Source: an uncultured Bacteroidales bacterium (GTDB lineage Bacteria > Bacteroidota > Bacteroidia > Bacteroidales > Paludibacteraceae). From it: a DNA stretch of 42,260 bases. The notes under the pieces were generated by a model. That model was not told the DNA's origin. It did not search any database and worked only from the letters and a program-made list of their open reading frames with translations. The stretch lies in assembly GCA_902784425.1 (NCBI GenBank), contig CACZUS010000058.1, positions 1-42,260 of the forward strand, read 5' to 3'. The position numbers and the translations under genes were made by a program. This document shows, in pieces, positions 2,375 through 38,643 of this stretch (positions within the stretch are counted from its first letter, which is position 1; each line of letters starts with the position of its first letter).

Positions 2375-5300
2375 ATGAAGACACGCATTTTATCCTTTTT
2401 CACCTTGTTTCTGATGTGTCACTCCTTTGTGAAAGCTGACATTGACATCACAGACCTGTATTTGGAAAATGCAGGATTTGACGATGCGAACTATTATGAT
2501 TATAAAGTCTCCGACTACGGGAACGTGGCTCAAGAGATTCTTTCCATCCATGGGTGGAACAAGGATATCGGAGTGGATTACACCGTTACGGGCATCTATG
2601 AACTGGGTACAAGCAAGACATTCAACACGAATGGAAAGGTGCCATCTTCTGGCTATGACGGTTCAAAAGGAGGTTGTCTGGTTTTAAGTACAGGATGGGA
2701 TGAATCGCTCAAATATTATCAAGATGTGAAACTTCCTTCGGGTTCGTATAAATTGCAAGCGGCCTTCTACAATGGAAGTAACTCTGCCAATGGTGCCAGT
2801 CTGTTGGGATGGATTCCCGACAACAATAATAACACCTCTCGTCTCTCCTCCATCACTTCCTTCTCCATGAACAGTTGGACACTCGACGAAGTCTCCTTCA
2901 ATCTCTCCTCAACCACGGAGGGTCGCGTGCAAATTGGTTTCAAAGGAGCATCTGGCGGTTCTGCCAACTCAGCCAAAGTGGTGGTCGACTTTGTGAAAAT
3001 CATTCTTGTCGGAGACGATAACACATTGATATCCAACATTCGAGCAGAATTTAAAAACACCCTTTCATCCGCCAATTCCACCTACGGAAATGGTGAAGGC
3101 AAAGAGGCTAACCTATTAAAAAATGCGATTGACAAGGCTCAAGAGGTCTGCGATAACACCTCAGCCTCCTATGCCGATCTCTTCAAAGCAAACAAGGCAA
3201 TTCAAGTAGCATTGGTCAACTACGAATTGGCAAATGCCACCATGCAACATCCAGTCGACGTTACCACATTAATCATAAATCCTAATTTTGAAAAAGGATT
3301 TGACGGATGGTCATACGCTAATCTTCAAACACAGACCAACACCTCATTTGCACAAAAATCAGGAAATATCTACATTGAAAAATGGGTATCTGCGGGTTCG
3401 CAAGTAGGTGATGCTAATGTGATACAGACAATTAATCAAAATCTAAATAAAGGCTTTTATCTGTTGAAAGCAAACGCACAGAACACGCAAAACGGACGAA
3501 GTGCCCAAGGTGCATGGATCATCGCAGGCAATGATAGCGTGGAGGTATCCGAAGCCAAAGAATACACCCTTCAATTCATCCAGATGGAAGATGAACTAAC
3601 GTTGGGTTTGGTGGCACATCAAGCTAGCGGCAATTGGATTTCCGTAGACAATTTCCGTCTTTACTATGGTGCCGCTACCACAGACGACTATAAAGAGGAA
3701 TTACAAAAACGCATTGATGTTGCACAGCAACTCATGCAAAAAAACATAGGGACCAGCTGTCAGGAGACTTTAAACTCCACCATTCAAAAAACGGAAAACT
3801 GGATTAGTCATCCTGATATGGAAACACTATCATCCATATCTCGCACGTTGCGCAATGCCATTCAAGAGGCACAGAACTCCCTAGCAAAGGCTGAATTCAG
3901 AGAGAAACTCGAAAATGCCACAGGACCTGTTCCTTCTGTCACGACAGATCCACGTCATGCACGAGGAGCCACTATGGCCTTTGGTCGCGCCACCTTCTCA
4001 GGCAACAACATCATGGAGAAAGGATTCTGTTGGAGCACACATAAGAATCCCACCGTATTGGACAATCGTTCCACGCTCTCCTACAGCAATAACGGCGACA
4101 TCTATGTGATGGACGGTCTGCAACCCGCCACACAATACTATATCCGAGCCTATGCCATCACCAATGGCTATGCCGTAGATTATGGTGATTGCATTCGTAT
4201 CTGCACGCTTCCGATGGGTAATGTCACATGGACCTACAACAACGGCGGTTCGGATGAAGAAAACAAGAGAATCAACAGTGCCATCGAAGATGCTGTGAAT
4301 GTATGGAACCATATCACAAGTATAAAAGGACTACGCCTATCCGTCTCCTACGGAGCCAATACACAAACAGCAGATTGCAGCTACGGAGGCTCCATGCGTG
4401 TGGGTCCAAACGCAAGCTATCAACGCACGGGAACCATCCAACATGAGATGTGCCACGCAGCAGGCGTTGGTACCACCGAGACATGGTACAACTCATCCAT
4501 CTACCGTCAAGAAACCAGCAAAGGCTTCTGGTTGGGCGAACGAACCGACCAAGTGGTTCAATTCCTCGACAACGATAACACGGCACAGCTGCATGGTGAT
4601 AACACCCACTTCTGGCCTTACGGAATCAATGGCGCACACGAAGATGACGGAACTCGCATTCTCTACTACGCCAATGCCTTGATTATCCAAGCATTGGGAG
4701 AAGACAACCTGCCTCCTGTTTCAGGTGCGTTCGCCTCTCCTGCCTATACCTTCATGCAGGATGATGACGAGGTCTATTATATTCTAACAGCCAACGAGAG
4801 CATCCGAAACATACCAACCATGCTGAAGACTAACTCATCCAATAGTGTAGCACTCCAAAACACTGATTGGAAAGAGTCCCTCTCCGACAACGCCTTCGCT
4901 TGGAAAATCACATTCAACCCTCAATCACAGACCTACGAAATGCGTAATGTTGCAACCAATTCAACACTAAATAACAACAACGCTAATGTCACATTGAGTT
5001 CAAATGAGAATTATAAAATACAATTGTTAGGCTCCAGACAGAAAGTGTCCAACGACTATTTCAATCTGAAATCTTATTGGATGACCTTCTCCGAGAACAA
5101 TAATCGTCCGATGACCCTTACAGCCAACCAAAGCAACGGTAATCTCAATGTCTCATGCACTCGATTCGACCATCAAAACTCCGCCAGTCAACAACGATGG
5201 ATCATCCTTTCACAAAAGGAGGTGAAGGCATTGGCAGGTGATTATTCAGCACTTCAAGAGAGTATCAACACAACCTCTCTCATCGCATATGGCGGTAAAG

Positions 5301-30084: not shown

Positions 30085-30290
30085 TATCGCTATTACAGAT
30101 TTATTGTGATGGCAACAAAATATACTGCCACAGTGTTTGCTAACTGACAACTATATGATTAGATATGGGAAAAGAAGCATGTATTGTTAAAATGCAGAAT
30201 CTAAGTATATGTTTACAGAGCACGGAGTGGCACTGCTTGTAAATTATTGTATTAAAAACATCTATCTATAACAAAAAATAAAATACAGCT

Positions 30291-30845: not shown

Positions 30846-30881
30846 AGGATGAGAGAGAAAAAATAAGTAGGACATAATAGG

Positions 30882-30960
30882 ACTGATAAGACTGATAAGA
30901 CTGATAAGACTGATAAGACTGATAAGACTGATAGGACTGATAGGACAGATAGGACCGATA
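30882..30960. repeat. 9-bp tandem repeat (ACTGATAAG, about 8.8 copies)
   Basis: Five perfect copies of ACTGATAAG are followed by three variants (ACTGATAGG twice, ACAGATAGG) and a partial unit. The repeat unit is a multiple of three, so ORFs crossing it are open on either strand without being genes. It lies in a short intergenic gap and may vary in copy number by slippage. Confidence 0.9.
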
Positions 30961-30994
30961 AAAAAACTCCCACGAAATAATCAACAAGTAAGTT

Positions 30995-31270
30995 ATGGCA
31001 ACAAAAACCACCAAAATAGAATGGACCGACAAGACGTGGAACCCCATCACTGGATGCACCAAGATTTCGCAAGGTTGTGCCCACTGCTATGCAGAAGTGA
31101 TGACAAGGCGATTGAATGCCATGGGGCTTGAGAAATACGTCAATGGGTTTAATGTGACACTGTATGAGGAGTGTATTGAAGAGCCATTGGCTTGGAAGCA
31201 ACCCCACACCATATTTGTATGCTCAATGAGCGATTTGTTCCGCATAGTGTTTCAGGCTATGCCAGGGTGA
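30995..31270 (+). pseudogene. DUF5131 (phage Gp37/Gp68-like) protein, truncated
   Basis: 91 codons. The start matches DUF5131 well: [25 protein letters not shown] (a Cys cluster like that of radical SAM/SPL-type proteins) and [16 protein letters not shown]. Family members are ~230-280 residues; here the frame runs into IVFQAMPG and stops at 31270. The break coincides with the start of a repeat-rich stretch with hairpins. I treat it as a truncated gene. It lies just after the 9-bp repeat array. Confidence 0.8.
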
Positions 31271-31767: not shown

Positions 31768-32607
31768 ATGGATAAACAGGGCTTTATCGATTTCAACACT
31801 CGTCTTTCTCCAGAAAATTCAGGAAAAGCAGACAGCTATGCTCGTGCAATAACGATTCTGAACGAAGTGCTACAATATCAAAACAAGATAGACCTACAGG
31901 GACAGTCGCTCTATGACATTTCCGACATAGCCACCATCGAGGCTGTATTGCGCTTGGTTAAAGACGAAGTGAAGAAAATGAGAAATCAACAGCAAAATAT
32001 TTTCGACTATGGCAATCCTAACCAAAAGAGCTATCCTCGGAATAATTTTTGCTCAGCTGCCCTGAATAGTCTGAAGATGTATGCCCAATATGAACAAGAC
32101 ATAAAAAAGGCGGATGATATTGTGTCTCAGGAGAAAAATCCACGTAAAATCTCCGAAAAACTCATCTGTCACTTTGATATAGAGAAAGAAGGTGAAGACA
32201 TTGTCTCCGCAACAAAACGGAGGAAAGGTCAAGAGTATTTCCGCCACATGATAATAGCTAACTATGGCGGACGTTGTGCCCTGACTGGAATTAACGTGCC
32301 TCAGTTACTATTAGCTAGTCATATAATACCATGGGCAGAGAAGTCTCACAAAAAAGACCGTCTGAATCCCTGCAACGGCATCTGTCTCTCAGCACTATAC
32401 GACAAAGCTTTCGACAGGGGTCTGATCACCATCTCACCAGATGACTATACCGTCCGTCTTTCATCCGTTTTGCGTGAGTATGAAACGCAGGAGTTTTACG
32501 ACCGTCATTTCGGCTGTATTGCAGGAAGACAGATAACAATGCCTATTGAGTTTAAGCCCAATCAGGAGTTCCTGAAATATCATCAAGATTACATTTTCCA
32601 GCAATAA
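31768..32607 (+). CDS. HNH endonuclease (HNH_2 type)
   Basis: 279 residues. The N-terminal ~110 residues form a helical region. The C-terminal HNH_2 domain has RCALTGI, the metal-site His in ASHIIPW (His185), KKDRLNPCNGICLSALYDKAFD and DRGLITI. It is expected to be a sequence-nonspecific or modification-dependent nuclease of restriction type. The stop codon at 32607 is 16 bases from the start of the PLD-helicase gene, which is followed 13 bases later by a Nudix gene, so all three look like one operon. No methyltransferase is adjacent, which argues against a classical R-M system. Confidence 0.88.
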   Translation: MDKQGFIDFNTRLSPENSGKADSYARAITILNEVLQYQNKIDLQGQSLYDISDIATIEAVLRLVKDEVKKMRNQQQNIFDYGNPNQKSYPRNNFCSAALNSLKMYAQYEQDIKKADDIVSQEKNPRKISEKLICHFDIEKEGEDIVSATKRRKGQEYFRHMIIANYGGRCALTGINVPQLLLASHIIPWAEKSHKKDRLNPCNGICLSALYDKAFDRGLITISPDDYTVRLSSVLREYETQEFYDRHFGCIAGRQITMPIEFKPNQEFLKYHQDYIFQQ

Positions 32608-32623
32608 AACAAAAAAAATACAT

Positions 32624-35600
32624 ATGAAACTTGTTGAAGGTGTTTACGAATCTCTTATCAGTACGGCCATTACAGAAAAATTGCAGCATGACTTCCCGGA
32701 GTGCAACTATTATGTTAAGAAGGAGCCAATAGACAGTGCAGAATCTCACACAATGTTATCACAATATCTCGCCAATATAGTATCTGCCATTTTAAAGGAA
32801 CATTTTCATGACAAAGAAGGAACTGTAACAATTAGCAAACAGGTGGAATGCGTCAATAAAATTCTTCACTATATTGAAAACGAATGGAAAGTGGAAAATC
32901 TTGAGAACGACATGTTAACCAAAGAAGATGAGACGAACTTTCTTCGGGCCATATATAGTAAAACGGGATACACAGAAGAACAAATTAAACACAAAGCTAA
33001 AATACACCCAGAAACAGGCTACAGAGTGAGCAATTTGTTCACCGGAGCCTATGGTCTTTCTATCGATGAAGAAATCAAAAAGGACATTCAAACCGCTGAC
33101 AGCATAGATCTTGTTGTCTCATTTATAAAGTTCACAGGCCTTAGACTTATATATGACGAGCTTAAAAAGTTTCTTTCTAAAAAAGGAGCCAAACTACGCA
33201 TCCTTACCACAACCTATATGGGGGCAACCGATGTAAAGGCGGTGAAATCTCTGTTGGATTTAAAGAATTTTGGCGATATTGAAATAAAAGCCTCCTACAA
33301 TACGAATGACGAACGATTGCATGCGAAAGCTTATATATTTAAGCGTGAGAATGGATTTGACACCGCTTACATTGGTTCATCAAACATTTCACACTCAGCG
33401 TTGACAAAAGGATTGGAATGGAATATGCGAGTAACTAATGTAGAGAATCCTCACATAATTCGTTCTACCCAAGCCACTTTTGATTCATACTGGAACAGTG
33501 CAGTCTTTGAACCTATAGAAAATGATGATGACATAAGACGCTTTGCTCAATCCATTGATGAAGCACGCAATAAGAAATCAAACATAGATAGTCCAGAAAT
33601 CATCACTCGATTTGTTCGGAAAACCCATCAGGTAAAGGTTTTAGAAAAGTTGCAATATGAACGAGAGAAACGCAATAATTATAGAAATCTTATTATAGCG
33701 GCAACTGGTACAGGAAAGACAGCTATATCAGCTTTCGACTATAAAGATTTCAACCAAAAATTTAAGAAAGAGAATGGTCGAGAAGCCCGTTTGCTTTTCA
33801 TCGTTCATCGTGAGAAAATACTAAAACAGGCCCGAAGCACATACCGCTCTGTAATGGTAGATGGGAACTTTGGTGAAATATGGACTGGCAATATCAAGCC
33901 CACATATGGCAGTAACATCGACCATCTGTTTATCACCATTCAGACATTGAACAACCATATAGATGAGTTGAGTGTTTTTGGCGCAGACTATTATGATTAT
34001 ATCGTGCTCGACGAGGTACACCATAGTCAGGCAGACTCTTATAGAAAGTTATTCGACGTTTTCAATCCGAAAATACTTATTGGTCTGACAGCCACCCCAG
34101 AGCGTATGGACAATAAGCCCATAACCCCAGATTTCAATGATAGGTTCTCCGCAGAGATACGATTACAAGATGCGCTTAACCAGCAATTGCTATCACCATT
34201 CGCTTATTTCTGTGTCACAGATGATACAGTTAATCTAAGTCGCTTGGCGTGCAGCGCAGATGGCAAGTATGACGTCAGCCAACTTGAAAAGCAGTACATC
34301 AATAACATGGACCGTTTCGGAAAAATTCAAGACGCAATCAATCGTTATCTAACCGATCCGCAGGGATGCAAAGCTGTATGCTTCTGTTGCTCAATAGCCC
34401 ATGCCGAATGGATGGCTACCATGTTTAACAACAGTGGATACAAAGCAGCTTCAGTCACATCAAAGAACAGCAGTGAAATTGACAACTACTCAGAACAACT
34501 AGCTCAGGGGAAAATAAACTATCTTTGTGTGGCTGATATTTTGAATGAGGGTATCGACATCCCCGAAATTGACACTGTACTTTTCTTACGTCCAACAGAA
34601 TCTCTCACAATATTTCTGCAACAGCTAGGACGTGGTCTTCGTCTGGCTGATGGAAAAACAGAACTGACAGTGCTTGACTTTGTAGCACAAGCAAATGTCA
34701 AATACAGCTATGAAAGTCGCTTCCGTGCTCTAATGGGGCCATCTAACACCTCAGTCAAAGAACAGGTGACCAATGGCTTCACCATGTTGCCTCGTGGTTG
34801 TAGCATCAATATGGAATTGCAAGCGCAACAGTATATCCTTAACAATATCAGTGAATGTATTTTCAACTTGTCTCGTCTACTCCGTGAAGTGAAGCATTTT
34901 GAACATGAAACAGGACAAGCACTGACGTTAAAGAATTTCCTTGAGAATTTCTCATTGGACTGGAGACTCATCTACAAATACAAAGACAAATACACATGGA
35001 CTGAACTTAAACATCTGGCTGGTATCAATGTGAAAGGCTACGATCGCACAAAAGAGGTCATCAATATGGAGAAGGGACTCACAAGATTGTATCATACAAA
35101 TTCTACCGATTATCTGCTATTTATCCAACAACTGTTAGATAATAGTTTTAAACTAGCAGTATCTAATAAGAGAGAAGAGATATTCAAACGTATGTTTTAT
35201 TATACTATATGCTACGATAAGTTGTCAAAATACAATGATAAGTATGGTCATGATTACAAAACTGAAGAGGAAGCTATCCAGGCCTTGAACAATTACCCAT
35301 ACTTTAAAGAAGAACTTCAAACCTGCGTAGAACTGAGACTTTCTCAACTTTTTCAAACCACAAAGTGGGTATCTGTTGGTAATGTTGAGTTGGAACTGTA
35401 TGGTTGCTATTCTTCTGACGAGATTCATATAATGTTCGAAGGAGATATACGTCGTGGTAATATTCTTGGTACACAGTATTTACAGGAACAAAAAATAGCA
35501 TTAGTGTTTGTCTCAACCAACAAATCTGACAAAGATTATTCACCATCTACGCTCTATCAAGACTATGCTATCAGTGAACGCCAATTTCACTGGCAATCAA

Positions 35601-35842
35601 AGCATGATGTTCGGATACAAAGCAATGACGGCCAACGAATTATTCATCAGAAAGAAAACGATTGGAAATATTTGCTCTTTGTAAGAGACCGCAAGAAAGA
35701 TGAATTTGATTTTACCAACGCATACTATTTCCTTGGTGAAATGGAATACGAATCCTCACACGGTGAATGTCCGATGAACGTTATCTGGAATATGAAAAAC
35801 GACATTCCAGGCAACATTCTAGAACTCACAAAGGCCGTATAA
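32624..35842 (+). CDS. PLD-nuclease / SF2 helicase / DUF3427 fusion protein
   Basis: 1072 residues. A PLD-like domain (about 140-300) has LHAKAYIF (His233, Lys235) then YIGSSNIS, one HxK motif. The SF2 helicase follows with Walker A ATGTGKTA (361-367), DEVHH (463-467), TATPERMD and motif VI QLGRGLRLA (arginine finger near 670-673). The C-terminal third (from about 720 to the end) matches DUF3427, with YIKG-like GINVKGYDRT and a beta-rich end. This is a multi-domain nucleic-acid processing protein of the kind seen in phage-defence islands. It is cotranscribed with an HNH nuclease and a Nudix hydrolase. Confidence 0.9.
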   Translation: MKLVEGVYESLISTAITEKLQHDFPECNYYVKKEPIDSAESHTMLSQYLANIVSAILKEHFHDKEGTVTISKQVECVNKILHYIENEWKVENLENDMLTKEDETNFLRAIYSKTGYTEEQIKHKAKIHPETGYRVSNLFTGAYGLSIDEEIKKDIQTADSIDLVVSFIKFTGLRLIYDELKKFLSKKGAKLRILTTTYMGATDVKAVKSLLDLKNFGDIEIKASYNTNDERLHAKAYIFKRENGFDTAYIGSSNISHSALTKGLEWNMRVTNVENPHIIRSTQATFDSYWNSAVFEPIENDDDIRRFAQSIDEARNKKSNIDSPEIITRFVRKTHQVKVLEKLQYEREKRNNYRNLIIAATGTGKTAISAFDYKDFNQKFKKENGREARLLFIVHREKILKQARSTYRSVMVDGNFGEIWTGNIKPTYGSNIDHLFITIQTLNNHIDELSVFGADYYDYIVLDEVHHSQADSYRKLFDVFNPKILIGLTATPERMDNKPITPDFNDRFSAEIRLQDALNQQLLSPFAYFCVTDDTVNLSRLACSADGKYDVSQLEKQYINNMDRFGKIQDAINRYLTDPQGCKAVCFCCSIAHAEWMATMFNNSGYKAASVTSKNSSEIDNYSEQLAQGKINYLCVADILNEGIDIPEIDTVLFLRPTESLTIFLQQLGRGLRLADGKTELTVLDFVAQANVKYSYESRFRALMGPSNTSVKEQVTNGFTMLPRGCSINMELQAQQYILNNISECIFNLSRLLREVKHFEHETGQALTLKNFLENFSLDWRLIYKYKDKYTWTELKHLAGINVKGYDRTKEVINMEKGLTRLYHTNSTDYLLFIQQLLDNSFKLAVSNKREEIFKRMFYYTICYDKLSKYNDKYGHDYKTEEEAIQALNNYPYFKEELQTCVELRLSQLFQTTKWVSVGNVELELYGCYSSDEIHIMFEGDIRRGNILGTQYLQEQKIALVFVSTNKSDKDYSPSTLYQDYAISERQFHWQSKHDVRIQSNDGQRIIHQKENDWKYLLFVRDRKKDEFDFTNAYYFLGEMEYESSHGECPMNVIWNMKNDIPGNILELTKAV

Positions 35843-35855
35843 TATAAAAACAAAG

Positions 35856-36248
35856 ATGAAACAAATAAAAGTCGTAGCAGCAATAATTTGCAAAAGAGAT
35901 AAAATTTTCTGCACTCAACGAGGATATGGAGAATGGAAAGATTGGTGGGAATTTCCCGGTGGCAAAATAGAACAAAACGAGACACCAGAGAATGCTCTAC
36001 ATCGTGAAATACGAGAAGAGTTGAATTGTGAAATAAAAATTGAGGAAATTCTGACTACTGTTGAGTATGATTACCCCAACTTCCATCTATCCATGCAATG
36101 TTATCTATGTTCTCTATCTTCTGATGCACCACAACTATTGGAACACAAAGATGCAAAATGGTTGAATTTCGAAGAATTGGATAGCGTAAATTGGCTACCT
36201 GCAGATGAAAATGTCGTTAAAATATTAAAGCAGAGAAACATGCAGTAA
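35856..36248 (+). CDS. Nudix (MutT-like) (deoxy)nucleoside triphosphate pyrophosphohydrolase
   Basis: 130 residues. The Nudix box runs G36-x5-E42-x7-R50-E51-x2-E54-E55, with Gly replaced by Asn57 near its end. The N-terminal VVAAII, GEWKDWWEFPGG and the C-terminal WLNFEELDSVNWLPAD segments are typical of the MutT/NudG-like pyrophosphohydrolases that clear oxidised or modified dNTPs. It starts 13 bases after the DUF3427 helicase and is the third gene of the likely operon; a role in handling modified nucleotides is an inference. Confidence 0.9.
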   Translation: MKQIKVVAAIICKRDKIFCTQRGYGEWKDWWEFPGGKIEQNETPENALHREIREELNCEIKIEEILTTVEYDYPNFHLSMQCYLCSLSSDAPQLLEHKDAKWLNFEELDSVNWLPADENVVKILKQRNMQ

Positions 36249-36252
36249 CCGT

Positions 36253-36624
36253 ATGGTCGAAGCCTGCAAGAATGCCAAATTACCAGAACCCGAATATGGT
36301 ACGAATGGAGCCTTTGTTTGGATTACATTCAAACGTCCAAGTTCTAACACCAACTCTGACAGTAACTCTGACACTAGTTCCATTATTGTGCACGGTCTGT
36401 CTGACAAACAGAAAGAAGTGTTGTCATTCTGCATTTTTGAAAGAAGTAGTCGTGAGATATTAGATCACATAGGAGTGACTTATCATAGTAAAAATATAGA
36501 AAAGTTTATCAATAGTCTGGTTGACGCAGGCCATCTTAAAAGGACCATACCCGACACACCTAACTCCCATCTCCAAAAATATATGACAAAAAAAGGAATG
36601 AATTTATTAGAATGCGCAATCTGA
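36253..36624 (+). pseudogene. C-terminal fragment of a RecG-like/AlbA_2 ATPase (HATPase_c_4) with winged helix
   Basis: The frame starts with MVEACKNAKLPEPEYGTNGAFVWITFKRP, the well-known tail of the COG2865-type regulators. A winged-helix-like segment follows (LSDKQKEVLSFCIFERSSREILDHIGVTYHSKNIEKFI). The N-terminal AlbA_2 ATPase portion is absent; the fragment begins at the very end of the Nudix gene (5 bases after it). It is likely a remnant, although a standalone winged-helix protein cannot be excluded. Confidence 0.6.
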
Positions 36625-36724
36625 GATTGCTGAATATCAGCGTAATCTGATTCCTCAAAAGGTTATGCATCGATTGCAGGAAGAGTATTGTGAATTCCTT
36701 CATAAAGAACAAAATAAAGTATGA
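36611..36724 (+). pseudogene. Short coding-like tail of an unidentified gene
   Basis: In a different frame from the preceding fragment, NAQSEIAEYQRNLIPQKVMH and then RLQEEYCEFLHKEQNKV run uninterrupted to a stop at 36724. It reads as a helical C-terminus with a sensible amino acid mix but has no start. I could not assign a family. Confidence 0.35.
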
Positions 36725-36766
36725 TTTATGCCTGCCGAGTTCCTTCCCCATCTCCCAAATTTTTCG

Positions 36767-36774
36767 TAACTTTG
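36767..36774 (+). promoter_or_regulatory. -7 promoter box for the first RhuM gene
   Basis: TAACTTTG fits TAnnTTTG and lies 27 bases before the ATG at 36801, which favours that start over an upstream in-frame one at 36690. Confidence 0.6.
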
Positions 36775-36800
36775 GAAAATTAATTTACAAGATAATACGT

Positions 36801-37622
36801 ATGAAATCAATCAACATGACCTGTCCTAAATGCCAATCTCAAGAGGTACAGTCCGTCGGAAACAGGTATCGTTGCCAAGCCTGTGGCTGTGAGTGGCAGT
36901 TTGCAGAAGATGCACCCGTGCATGAAAAAACGTTGTCCATCCGCAATAGCACGGCCGAGTTCCTGATCTTTCAGGCTCAGAGCCAAGCGAACGGGGTGGA
37001 AGTGCTGTATGCCAATGAGACTATATGGTGTACACAGAAAGCTATGGCAGCTCTCTTTGAAATTGACAGAACTGTAATCACCAAACATCTGAAAAATATT
37101 TTCGATTCAGGTGAATTACAGTTGTATTCAGTATGTGCAAATTTTGCACACACTGCTAATGATGGCAAAAGCTATCAGACAAAATTCTACAATTTAGATG
37201 CCGTCATCTCCGTAGGTTATCGAGTCAACTCCACCCGTGCCACACAGTTCCGCCAATGGGCCACAGCTGTGCTCCACCAGTTCGCCATCCGTGGCTACGT
37301 GCTGGACAAGAAACGTATGGAGAATGGCGCCTTCCTCTCAGTGGATTATTTCGAACATCTATTGTCGGAAATCCGCGAGATACGTATGAGCGAGCGCCGT
37401 CTCTACCAGAAAGTGACCGACCTCTACGCCACTGCTATCGACTACAACAAGGATGCTCCGACCACACGCCAGTTCTTCGCGAAGGTGCAGAATAAGCTAC
37501 ACTACGCCATACATGGACACACCGCCGCTGAATTGATCGTCAGCCGTGCCGATGCCAACAAGGAGCACATGGGTCTAACCACATGGGAGAACGCACCCGA
37601 TTCCGCATCATCGGTTGCATAA
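36801..37622 (+). CDS. RhuM family protein with N-terminal zinc ribbon, C-terminally short
   Basis: 273 residues from ATG 36801. Residues 8-30 form a zinc ribbon (C8, C11, C25, C28, C30). The RhuM domain follows: NSTAEFLIFQAQSQANGVEV, TQKAMAALFEIDRTVITKHLKNIFDSGEL, YNLDAVISVGYRVNSTRATQFRQWATAVLHQFAIRGYVLD, EIREIRMSERRLYQKVTDLYA and KLHYAIHGHTAAELIVSRAD. Full RhuM proteins continue ~60-80 residues after MGLTTW; here it ends at SASSVA. RhuM was named as a Salmonella virulence-island protein; the molecular role is unknown. The next RhuM gene follows after 22 bases. Confidence 0.78.
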   Translation: MKSINMTCPKCQSQEVQSVGNRYRCQACGCEWQFAEDAPVHEKTLSIRNSTAEFLIFQAQSQANGVEVLYANETIWCTQKAMAALFEIDRTVITKHLKNIFDSGELQLYSVCANFAHTANDGKSYQTKFYNLDAVISVGYRVNSTRATQFRQWATAVLHQFAIRGYVLDKKRMENGAFLSVDYFEHLLSEIREIRMSERRLYQKVTDLYATAIDYNKDAPTTRQFFAKVQNKLHYAIHGHTAAELIVSRADANKEHMGLTTWENAPDSASSVA

Positions 37623-37644
37623 ATTCAAACTATCAGAAAAGACA

Positions 37645-38643
37645 ATGGACAAAACAAATAAACTAATACTCTATAAAGACGATGAAGGCCGCATAAGCGT
37701 CAATGTGCGCTTCGCCGACGAGGATGTGTGGCTGACAAGAGAATATCTTGCAGACATATACGCTACTACACCACAGAATATAAGTCTTCATATCGGCAAT
37801 ATTTATCAAGATAAAGAACTCACCGAAGAGGCAACTCGAAAGAAATTCTTTCTAGTTCGCCAAGAGGGCAAACGTCAGGTCCAAAGGGAGATCGACCACT
37901 ACAACCTCGATATGATCATCGCCCTTGGCTACCGCGTGCAATCACCTGTGGCGGTGAGGTTCCGTCGGTGGGCGACACAACGGTTGCACGAGTATATCCA
38001 AAAAGGATTCACCCTGGATGATGAGAGACTGAAGCAGGGAGGAAACCGCTACTTCAAAGAGTTGCTGCAACGCATCCGCGACATCCGCAGCAGCGAGCGC
38101 AATTTCTACCAACAGGTGACGGACATCTACGCCACATCCACCGACTACGATCCTCGCTCCTCCATGACGAAACAATTCTTCTCCACCGTGCAGAACAAAA
38201 TGCACTATGCCGTACATGAACATACGGCTGCGGAGTTGATTTATGAGCGGGTGGATAACGAAAAACCCTTCGTCGGCATGACCAACTTCAAGGGCAACTA
38301 CGTGACCCGTGACGACGTGAAGATCGCCAAGAACTATCTGACAGAATTGGAACTGCAACGATTAAACCTGCTCACCTCCCAATTCCTCGATTATGCGGAG
38401 TTTCAAGCTTTGGAGCAGAACCCCATGACCATGGCCGACTGGATCGCGGCACTCGACGACCAAATTCTACGTCTTCGGAAAAACATATTGGAAGGCAACG
38501 GAACAATTTCGCACCAAGATGCGATTGAAAAGGCGGAACGTGAGTTTGAAATATACCGAGAAAGAGAAATGCGGATGCTGGAAAGCGACTTCGACAAGGC
38601 AATCAAAATGCTTAAGGAGAACCCGACAAACAACGATGATTGA
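37645..38643 (+). CDS. RhuM family protein (full length)
   Basis: 332 residues from ATG 37645; the frame also opens upstream but that stretch overlaps the end of the previous gene. The RhuM domain is complete: VWLTREYLADIYATTPQNISLHIGNIYQ, YNLDMIIALGYRVQSPVAVRFRRWATQRLHEYIQKGF, IRDIRSSERNFYQQVTDIYA, MHYAVHEHTAAELIYERVD and the C-terminal FLDYAEFQALEQNPMTMADWI stretch, ending in a charged coiled helix. It is an independent, diverged copy of the gene before it, not a recent duplicate. The pair probably share a promoter at 36767. Confidence 0.9.
   Translation: MDKTNKLILYKDDEGRISVNVRFADEDVWLTREYLADIYATTPQNISLHIGNIYQDKELTEEATRKKFFLVRQEGKRQVQREIDHYNLDMIIALGYRVQSPVAVRFRRWATQRLHEYIQKGFTLDDERLKQGGNRYFKELLQRIRDIRSSERNFYQQVTDIYATSTDYDPRSSMTKQFFSTVQNKMHYAVHEHTAAELIYERVDNEKPFVGMTNFKGNYVTRDDVKIAKNYLTELELQRLNLLTSQFLDYAEFQALEQNPMTMADWIAALDDQILRLRKNILEGNGTISHQDAIEKAEREFEIYREREMRMLESDFDKAIKMLKENPTNNDD

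Follow-up and report, generated by a model that had tools for sequence, protein, structure and literature searches.

The Type IV restriction enzyme SauUSI of Staphylococcus aureus is composed of a PLD nuclease, a superfamily 2 (SF2) motor, a coupler and an SRA reader, and cuts DNA bearing 5-methylcytosine (5mC) or 5-hydroxymethylcytosine (5hmC), in S-mC-NGS sites, as described in PMC7913695 and PMC3874153. Within the reader, Asp858 is described as making base-specific bonds, Trp868 as stacking on the base and Tyr831 as pointing towards the methyl group. A figure legend of Bell et al. 2020 (PMC7641849) places MutT homologues next to SauUSI homologues in Streptococcus. The accessible text of the open-licence literature that we searched offered no mechanism for this pair, and the accessible body of the paper on how SauUSI works uses neither the word mutT nor the word operon. 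Two of the papers found mention that a Nudix gene neighbours the SauUSI family. Here we analysed a 42,260-nucleotide stretch of DNA from an uncultured Bacteroidales bacterium of the Paludibacteraceae (assembly GCA_902784425.1, contig CACZUS010000058.1, positions 1 to 42,260; hereafter the window), in which three consecutive genes encode an HNH-type nuclease, a long protein resembling SauUSI and a Nudix hydrolase. We consider the chances about even that this operon forms a modification-dependent restriction module of the SauUSI type, with its own enzyme for cleaning the nucleotide pool.

A predicted SauUSI-family enzyme in a compact operon

All three open reading frames lie on the plus strand, at positions 31768–32607 (279 amino acids), 32624–35842 (1072 amino acids) and 35856–36248 (130 amino acids), separated by gaps of 16 and 13 bases in neither of which a terminator-like site was found. 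Their Pfam domains follow in the order HNH_2 (PF13391, E-value 3.5e-12), PLDc_2/ResIII/Helicase_C/DUF3427 and NUDIX, so that the arrangement described in the initial annotation was borne out by both the reading frames and the domain matches. No Rfam family reached its gathering score between positions 30200 and 38700. The initial annotation was likewise right that no methyltransferase is nearby: PF00145 (C5-cytosine methylase) had no match on the contig of the operon, and no other methylase family was found among the 17 window proteins scanned with Pfam. As in a SauUSI-type system, a cognate methyltransferase is thus lacking among these 17 proteins; PF00145 matches are located elsewhere in the genome.

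The long protein was assigned by PADLOC to the Type IV methyl-directed restriction enzymes (mREase_IV, PDLC03659, E-value 4e-172). When a profile built from 18 of its relatives was compared with the PDB, the best sequence match was SauUSI itself (7clg, E-value 3.4e-147). An AlphaFold2 model of the protein (predicted local distance difference test (pLDDT) 79.5, predicted template modelling score 0.51) gave the same entry, listed as SauUSI, as the top Foldseek match (E-value 3.4e-45 over 957 columns). Identity between the two enzymes is 28% in our alignment of 13 sequences. The window enzyme differs by about 130 extra N-terminal residues: the extension of approximately residues 1–138 (32624–33037, plus strand, as for the domains below) has no SauUSI counterpart, the match to 7clg starting at profile position 129, and residues 1–140 are poorly modelled, with pLDDT values mostly below 60.

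Downstream of this extension, the PLD nuclease domain (PF13091) spans residues 158–290 (33095–33493) and carries the HxK residues H233 and K235, which align with H119 and K121 of SauUSI. It is followed by the central SF2 helicase-like ATPase, matched by ResIII and Helicase_C at residues 334–674 (33623–34645) and covered by the structural match to 7clg, and by a DUF3427 region (PF11907, residues 815–1067, 35066–35824) that contains the predicted SRA-type reader. In the reader pocket, the equivalents of SauUSI F841, D858 and W868 are kept in all 13 rows of the alignment, corresponding to F962, D980 and W990 of the window enzyme, whereas the position of Tyr831 is taken by Q951. The long protein is thus clearly a member of the SauUSI family, with a predicted nuclease, a predicted motor and most of the reader residues kept, whereas the exact mark that it reads may differ, the Tyr831 position being a glutamine. 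The defence role that the initial annotation had suggested for the operon is thus upheld by family membership, both of this enzyme and of the Nudix protein (below). SauUSI, too, has a Nudix gene directly alongside, which lies upstream rather than downstream as in the window, and the HNH gene in front sets the window operon further apart.

A short second piece of a SauUSI-family enzyme, comprising the N-terminal region and the start of the PLD domain, was found on another contig of the same genome (C118; positions 2403–2972, minus strand, of the stretch extracted there) and is apparently a remnant.

The Nudix protein belongs to a D-type branch

The Nudix hydrolase (35856–36248) matched the PADLOC defence candidate PDC-S07 with an E-value of 6e-53, and no second domain was detected in it by Pfam. 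In agreement with the clear Nudix box of the initial annotation, the catalytic residues G36, E42, R50, E51, E54 and E55 are present, as they are in all 50 distinct Nudix proteins adjacent to an enzyme that we aligned. The last glycine of what we take to be the Nudix-box consensus is N57 in the window protein. All 50 adjacent proteins also have an aspartate at position 117, the base-recognition position, together with a histidine at position 97, which places them with the NudG/CTP-pyrophosphohydrolase-like type. D117 presumably corresponds to the cytosine-recognising D116 of mycobacterial MutT2. The gammaproteobacterial MutT-like proteins from enzyme-bearing genomes without an adjacent Nudix gene have an asparagine at position 117 and no histidine at position 97 (11 of 11). 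The window protein does not qualify as a MutT 8-oxo-dGTPase, having D117 rather than an asparagine and scoring 91.9 bits against the TIGR00586 cut-off of 97.9. The PDC-S07 profile also takes such an N-type gammaproteobacterial protein (E-value 6e-42) and thus fails to separate the two branches; S. suis occurrences are described in PMC12813430.

The second-best PDB match of the window protein (E-value 1e-24) was 3gwy, the Bacteroides fragilis protein Q5LBB1, with which it shares 39% identity, the Nudix box, E-H at positions 96–97 and A-D at positions 116–117. The kcat/Km values listed for Q5LBB1 are 6.7e6 for 5-Me-CTP, 4.8e6 for 5-Me-dCTP, 4.4e6 for 5-MeOH-dCTP (5-hydroxymethyl-dCTP) and 8.5e4 for 5-OH-dCTP, and its activity on canonical nucleoside triphosphates is described as much lower (PMC5158307). 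The same source lists 5-methyl-dCTP (its Table 3) and CTP activity for E. coli NudG, whose Nudix box resembles that of the window protein. By its residues and alignments, the window protein is a member of the D-type branch that includes this characterised 5-substituted-(d)CTP hydrolase; whereas the substrate is known for 3gwy, hydrolysis of 5-Me-dCTP is predicted for the window protein from this homologue. Of the two kinds of substrate considered in the initial annotation, modified nucleotides are therefore in keeping with the homologue, and for signal nucleotides nothing was found. Searches for the genomic context of Q5LBB1 in 61 genomes and in 301 genomes around locus L034 gave no match above 55% identity, and no restriction neighbour of 3gwy was established.

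The best PDB match was 5x1x, annotated as 'Mutator mutT protein'; by eye, its printed stretch reads nearly like the S. aureus Nudix neighbour of SauUSI. Several D-type Nudix proteins in other genomes are fused to further domains by Pfam, namely a beta-lactamase fold (L211), an alcohol-dehydrogenase-like domain (L216, L220), a methyltransferase (L089) or GNAT (L108), and other loci among L209–L222 have frames of similar length to these fused proteins.

Nudix genes recur next to SauUSI-family genes

We collected 112 enzyme loci, of which 30 came from 395 Bacteroidota genomes (window included), 80 from genome contigs and 2 from viral contigs. In the Bacteroidota search 222 genomes matched at an E-value of 0.001, many of them through other SF2 helicases, and the best 30 loci were taken; the genome contigs contributed the best 80 of at least 585 enzyme relatives and the viral contigs the 2 full-length loci of 33. 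A same-strand Nudix gene lay within 150 bp of the enzyme gene in 44 of the 112 loci, 34 times 5' of it and 10 times 3' of it, and in a further five it was located within 3 kb. The pairing is therefore common, and the third position of the Nudix gene is not the unusual feature that it had been taken for. Among the 69 genome-contig loci that were flanked on each side by 400 bp or more, 21 had the Nudix gene 5', 7 had it 3', 5 had it near and 36 had none. In these loci, the background was 5 Nudix genes in 535 non-adjacent gene slots, versus 28 of 69 loci with an adjacent one. Reduction to less than 80% identity left 60 loci, 16 with an adjacent and 4 with a near Nudix gene. No other neighbour cluster exceeded six members among the surveyed loci. 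Four-base-pair overlaps joined 25 of 40 5' Nudix–enzyme pairs, and a FastTree tree of 93 enzymes required at least 20 changes of Nudix state. Two apparent features were discarded: the grouping of L099 with the Nudix proteins, since it shares only a methyltransferase domain with a fused neighbour (the locus was counted as lacking Nudix), and a 4425-residue frame in L006, an artefact of masked N.

Whole-genome search coordinates gave a second view of the 395 Bacteroidota genomes. Among the 43 strongest enzyme matches, a Nudix gene was adjacent in 8 of 8 SauUSI-type genes, 11 of 31 window-type genes (window included) and 1 of 4 fragments, SauUSI type being assigned by score and by a match start after residue 140. 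Five of the eight SauUSI-type genes (L151, L157, L158, L164 and L165) were read over roughly their first 500 residues and were 43–47% identical to SauUSI and 29–34% to the window enzyme. In the phylum to which Bacillus fonticola belongs, 194 genomes were searched, and a Nudix gene stood beside a DUF3427 gene at 8 of 26 places (7 on the same strand, 1 convergent), as judged by coordinates and frame lengths, and 2.4 kb away at one more; two of the eight (G408, G421) were already known from L059 and L086. The chance expectation there is about 0.007, given 70 Nudix places and an assumed 2,700 genes per genome. Adjacency of the enzyme and a Nudix gene thus recurs far above background. Over 48 pairs, enzyme and Nudix distances were correlated (r 0.72, with none of 2000 permutations as high). 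The closest Nudix protein to that of the window among these pairs was clostridial (L069), also 3' of its enzyme and 61% identical, the two enzymes being 41% alike.

The pair next to SauUSI itself and on plasmids

In OR845003.1, deposited as an unverified Staphylococcus phage sequence, a protein of 953 residues aligns with 7clg along its entire length (2065.7 bits), and a 133-residue Nudix gene ends 1 bp upstream of this SauUSI gene. In the S. aureus record NZ_CP077890, a Nudix gene annotated as (deoxy)nucleoside triphosphate pyrophosphohydrolase adjoins an unannotated, broken enzyme frame. The pair was also present on plasmids of Lactiplantibacillus, Latilactobacillus, Limosilactobacillus (enzyme frame broken) and Hymenobacter canadensis, and absent from the plasmids examined of Peptoclostridium, Hymenobacter swuensis, Neotabrizicola, Spiroplasma, Paracoccus, Fusobacterium and Pseudoalteromonas. 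Two contigs from the human gut are deposited as phage: L281 has a Nudix gene 3' of the enzyme, and L275 has none.

On two Lactobacillaceae plasmids, a nucleotide pyrophosphohydrolase gene directly follows the Nudix–SauUSI pair (L268, 5796–6116; L273, 5867–6178). The former is MazG-like by Pfam, and such a gene is possibly a second pool cleaner; one of the two plasmids has it beside a Schlafen-type helicase, so we take this as a lead only.

A proposed nucleotide-pool cleaner for self-protection

It is generally assumed that a Type IV enzyme calls for no self-protection, since the host lacks the mark. In the mechanism that we propose, the enzyme would detect 5mC- or 5hmC-like marks in invading DNA, translocate and cut, and the degraded marked DNA, or phage metabolism, would supply modified deoxycytidine nucleotides that can be converted to triphosphates. 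The Nudix hydrolase would cleave 5-Me-dCTP and 5-hydroxymethyl-dCTP to the monophosphate, upon which the polymerase would leave the mark out of the chromosome and host DNA would be spared from its own enzyme. Both bases that SauUSI reads are represented, as triphosphates, among the substrates measured for the homologue. Pool cleaning by the Nudix protein would lower the mark in all new DNA, which would benefit only a cell whose own DNA is at risk. For human DCTPP1, it has been reported that 5-methyl-dCTP in the pool can accompany higher DNA methylation and that a pyrophosphatase can lower both (PMC4491611). The more general idea, that self-immunity in modification-dependent restriction comes from a pool enzyme for the triphosphates of the bases that the partner nuclease reads, and not from a methyltransferase or an antitoxin, is put forward tentatively, at somewhat less than an even chance. 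If marked nucleotides from degraded DNA or phage metabolism can enter the pool, the host must keep them out, and a recurrent 5-methyl/hydroxymethyl-dCTPase beside SauUSI-family enzymes would be that safeguard. This would also provide a reason for the recurrent, unexplained defence candidate PDC-S07, and would mean that an unexplained guard stands even beside SauUSI itself.

Several observations weigh against this proposal. The activities of the three window proteins are predictions from sequence, and the glutamine at the Tyr831 position departs from SauUSI. PF00145 has three matches in the genome of the window (contigs C18 and C12), and a certain amount of 5mC may therefore be tolerated. No same-strand Nudix gene was found within 3 kb in 63 of the 112 enzyme loci or in 40 of the 60 reduced ones, and 26 of the 48 enzyme-bearing genomes searched had no adjacent Nudix gene. 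These 26 comprise 9 without a PDC-S07 match at an E-value of 1e-20, 11 with the gammaproteobacterial N-type, 4 with a D-type protein elsewhere, one whose match was left unread (L071) and one with a fused Nudix protein 423 bp from the enzyme (L039); in the L104 genome, one of two matches was read. In the genome of the window, the single PDC-S07 match at this threshold (10 of 12 candidates scored) is the Nudix gene of the operon. All 18 PDC-S07-type proteins that are not adjacent to an enzyme (13 with none in the stretch examined and 5 with one near) have D117, and 17 of the 18 have H97, so that D117 is a mark of the branch rather than of the partnership; conversely, position 97 is an alanine in the L281 protein, although its gene lies 3' of an enzyme. 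Within the roughly 1.5 kb examined, 23 of 25 (L240–L264) and 12 of 16 (L208–L223) Nudix loci of gut Bacteroidaceae had no enzyme nearby. Lastly, the correlation of distances fell to r 0.11 in divergent pairs, and the partners therefore seem to have been exchanged over long times.

These same loci are what a housekeeping role would lead one to expect, in which the Nudix protein is a general sanitiser that travels with defence islands and is functionally unconnected to the restriction enzyme: D-type proteins without an enzyme in the gut Bacteroidaceae, and enzymes without a Nudix gene in more than half of the survey, would both follow. Hitchhiking of this kind would hardly account for same-strand adjacency on either side of the enzyme in Bacteroidota and Bacillota, for the 4-bp overlaps and for the repeated changes of state in the tree, and we therefore regard this explanation as unlikely. 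We assign a similarly low probability to an attacking role, in which the Nudix protein would destroy modified deoxynucleoside triphosphates of the phage (for example 5-hydroxymethyl-dCTP) and thereby starve phage DNA synthesis or strip its modification. Such a role draws on the same substrate prediction from the homologue and is consistent with the co-occurrence with defence genes. We favour self-protection over it because phage DNA with less of the mark would be a poorer target for the restriction enzyme; the argument is that stripping the mark would weaken recognition by the partner and set the parts of the operon at odds.

Nucleotide depletion is a known principle of defence, and the Nudix protein could in this sense be an effector that depletes dCTP or CTP, or cleaves a messenger, upon infection. 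The CTP activity listed for NudG would be compatible with this, whereas the characterised homologue is reportedly much less active on canonical nucleoside triphosphates (PMC5158307) and the window protein has no second domain by Pfam, which makes an effector of this kind very improbable.

The HNH gene is probably an optional addition

The HNH protein encoded at 31768–32607 has a conserved C-terminal half (approximately residues 107–278), which matched PADLOC PDLC04132 (E-value 5e-48 over 107–278) and resembles PDB 6yex, and an N-terminal half without a detected family. It shares this C-terminal HNH half with the PADLOC HNH and PT-DNA_restrict proteins. It does not qualify as a phosphorothioate (PT)-dependent HNH restriction enzyme (NF045808), since PT-DNA_restrict matched residues 98–278 only, with 51.8 bits against a cut-off of 180. 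An AlphaFold2 model of this protein had a mean pLDDT of 46.2 and was not used for structural inference.

Relatives of the HNH protein occur in 109 of the 395 Bacteroidota genomes; judged by eye, only the window and four others of these genomes (G080, G026, G163 and G223) have one no more than about 10 kb from the enzyme. None were found in the viral contigs. They adjoin the enzyme in L042, L053 and L080, in the order Nudix–enzyme–HNH, and in L076; those of L012 and L043 are encoded on the opposite strand. Five aligned relatives were 22–26% identical to the window protein and differ in their N-terminal halves; three of four tested had a PT-DNA_restrict match of nearly full length, below the cut-off. 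Among the loci read, the order HNH–enzyme–Nudix was seen in the window alone. Of the conserved gene order that the initial annotation anticipated, the enzyme–Nudix pair recurs and the HNH gene in front of it does not, although the three kinds of gene meet again in the other order at the three loci named. From these comparisons, the HNH gene probably supplies an extra nuclease that is optional to the module.

Neighbouring genes

Upstream of the operon, the region 30868–31270 holds on the plus strand the N-terminal third of a truncated DUF5131 protein (PADLOC PDC-M41B/M30B), preceded by nine-base tandem repeats at 30868–30975. Downstream, a plus-strand frame of 123 amino acids (36253–36624) begins 4 bp past the Nudix stop codon; its sole Pfam match is Fic-like_C, and it appears to be what is left of the C terminus of a larger protein. 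It is followed at 36690–38643, again on the plus strand, by two adjoining RhuM-family genes (PADLOC PDC-S05), the first of which has a weak zinc-ribbon-like match near its start.

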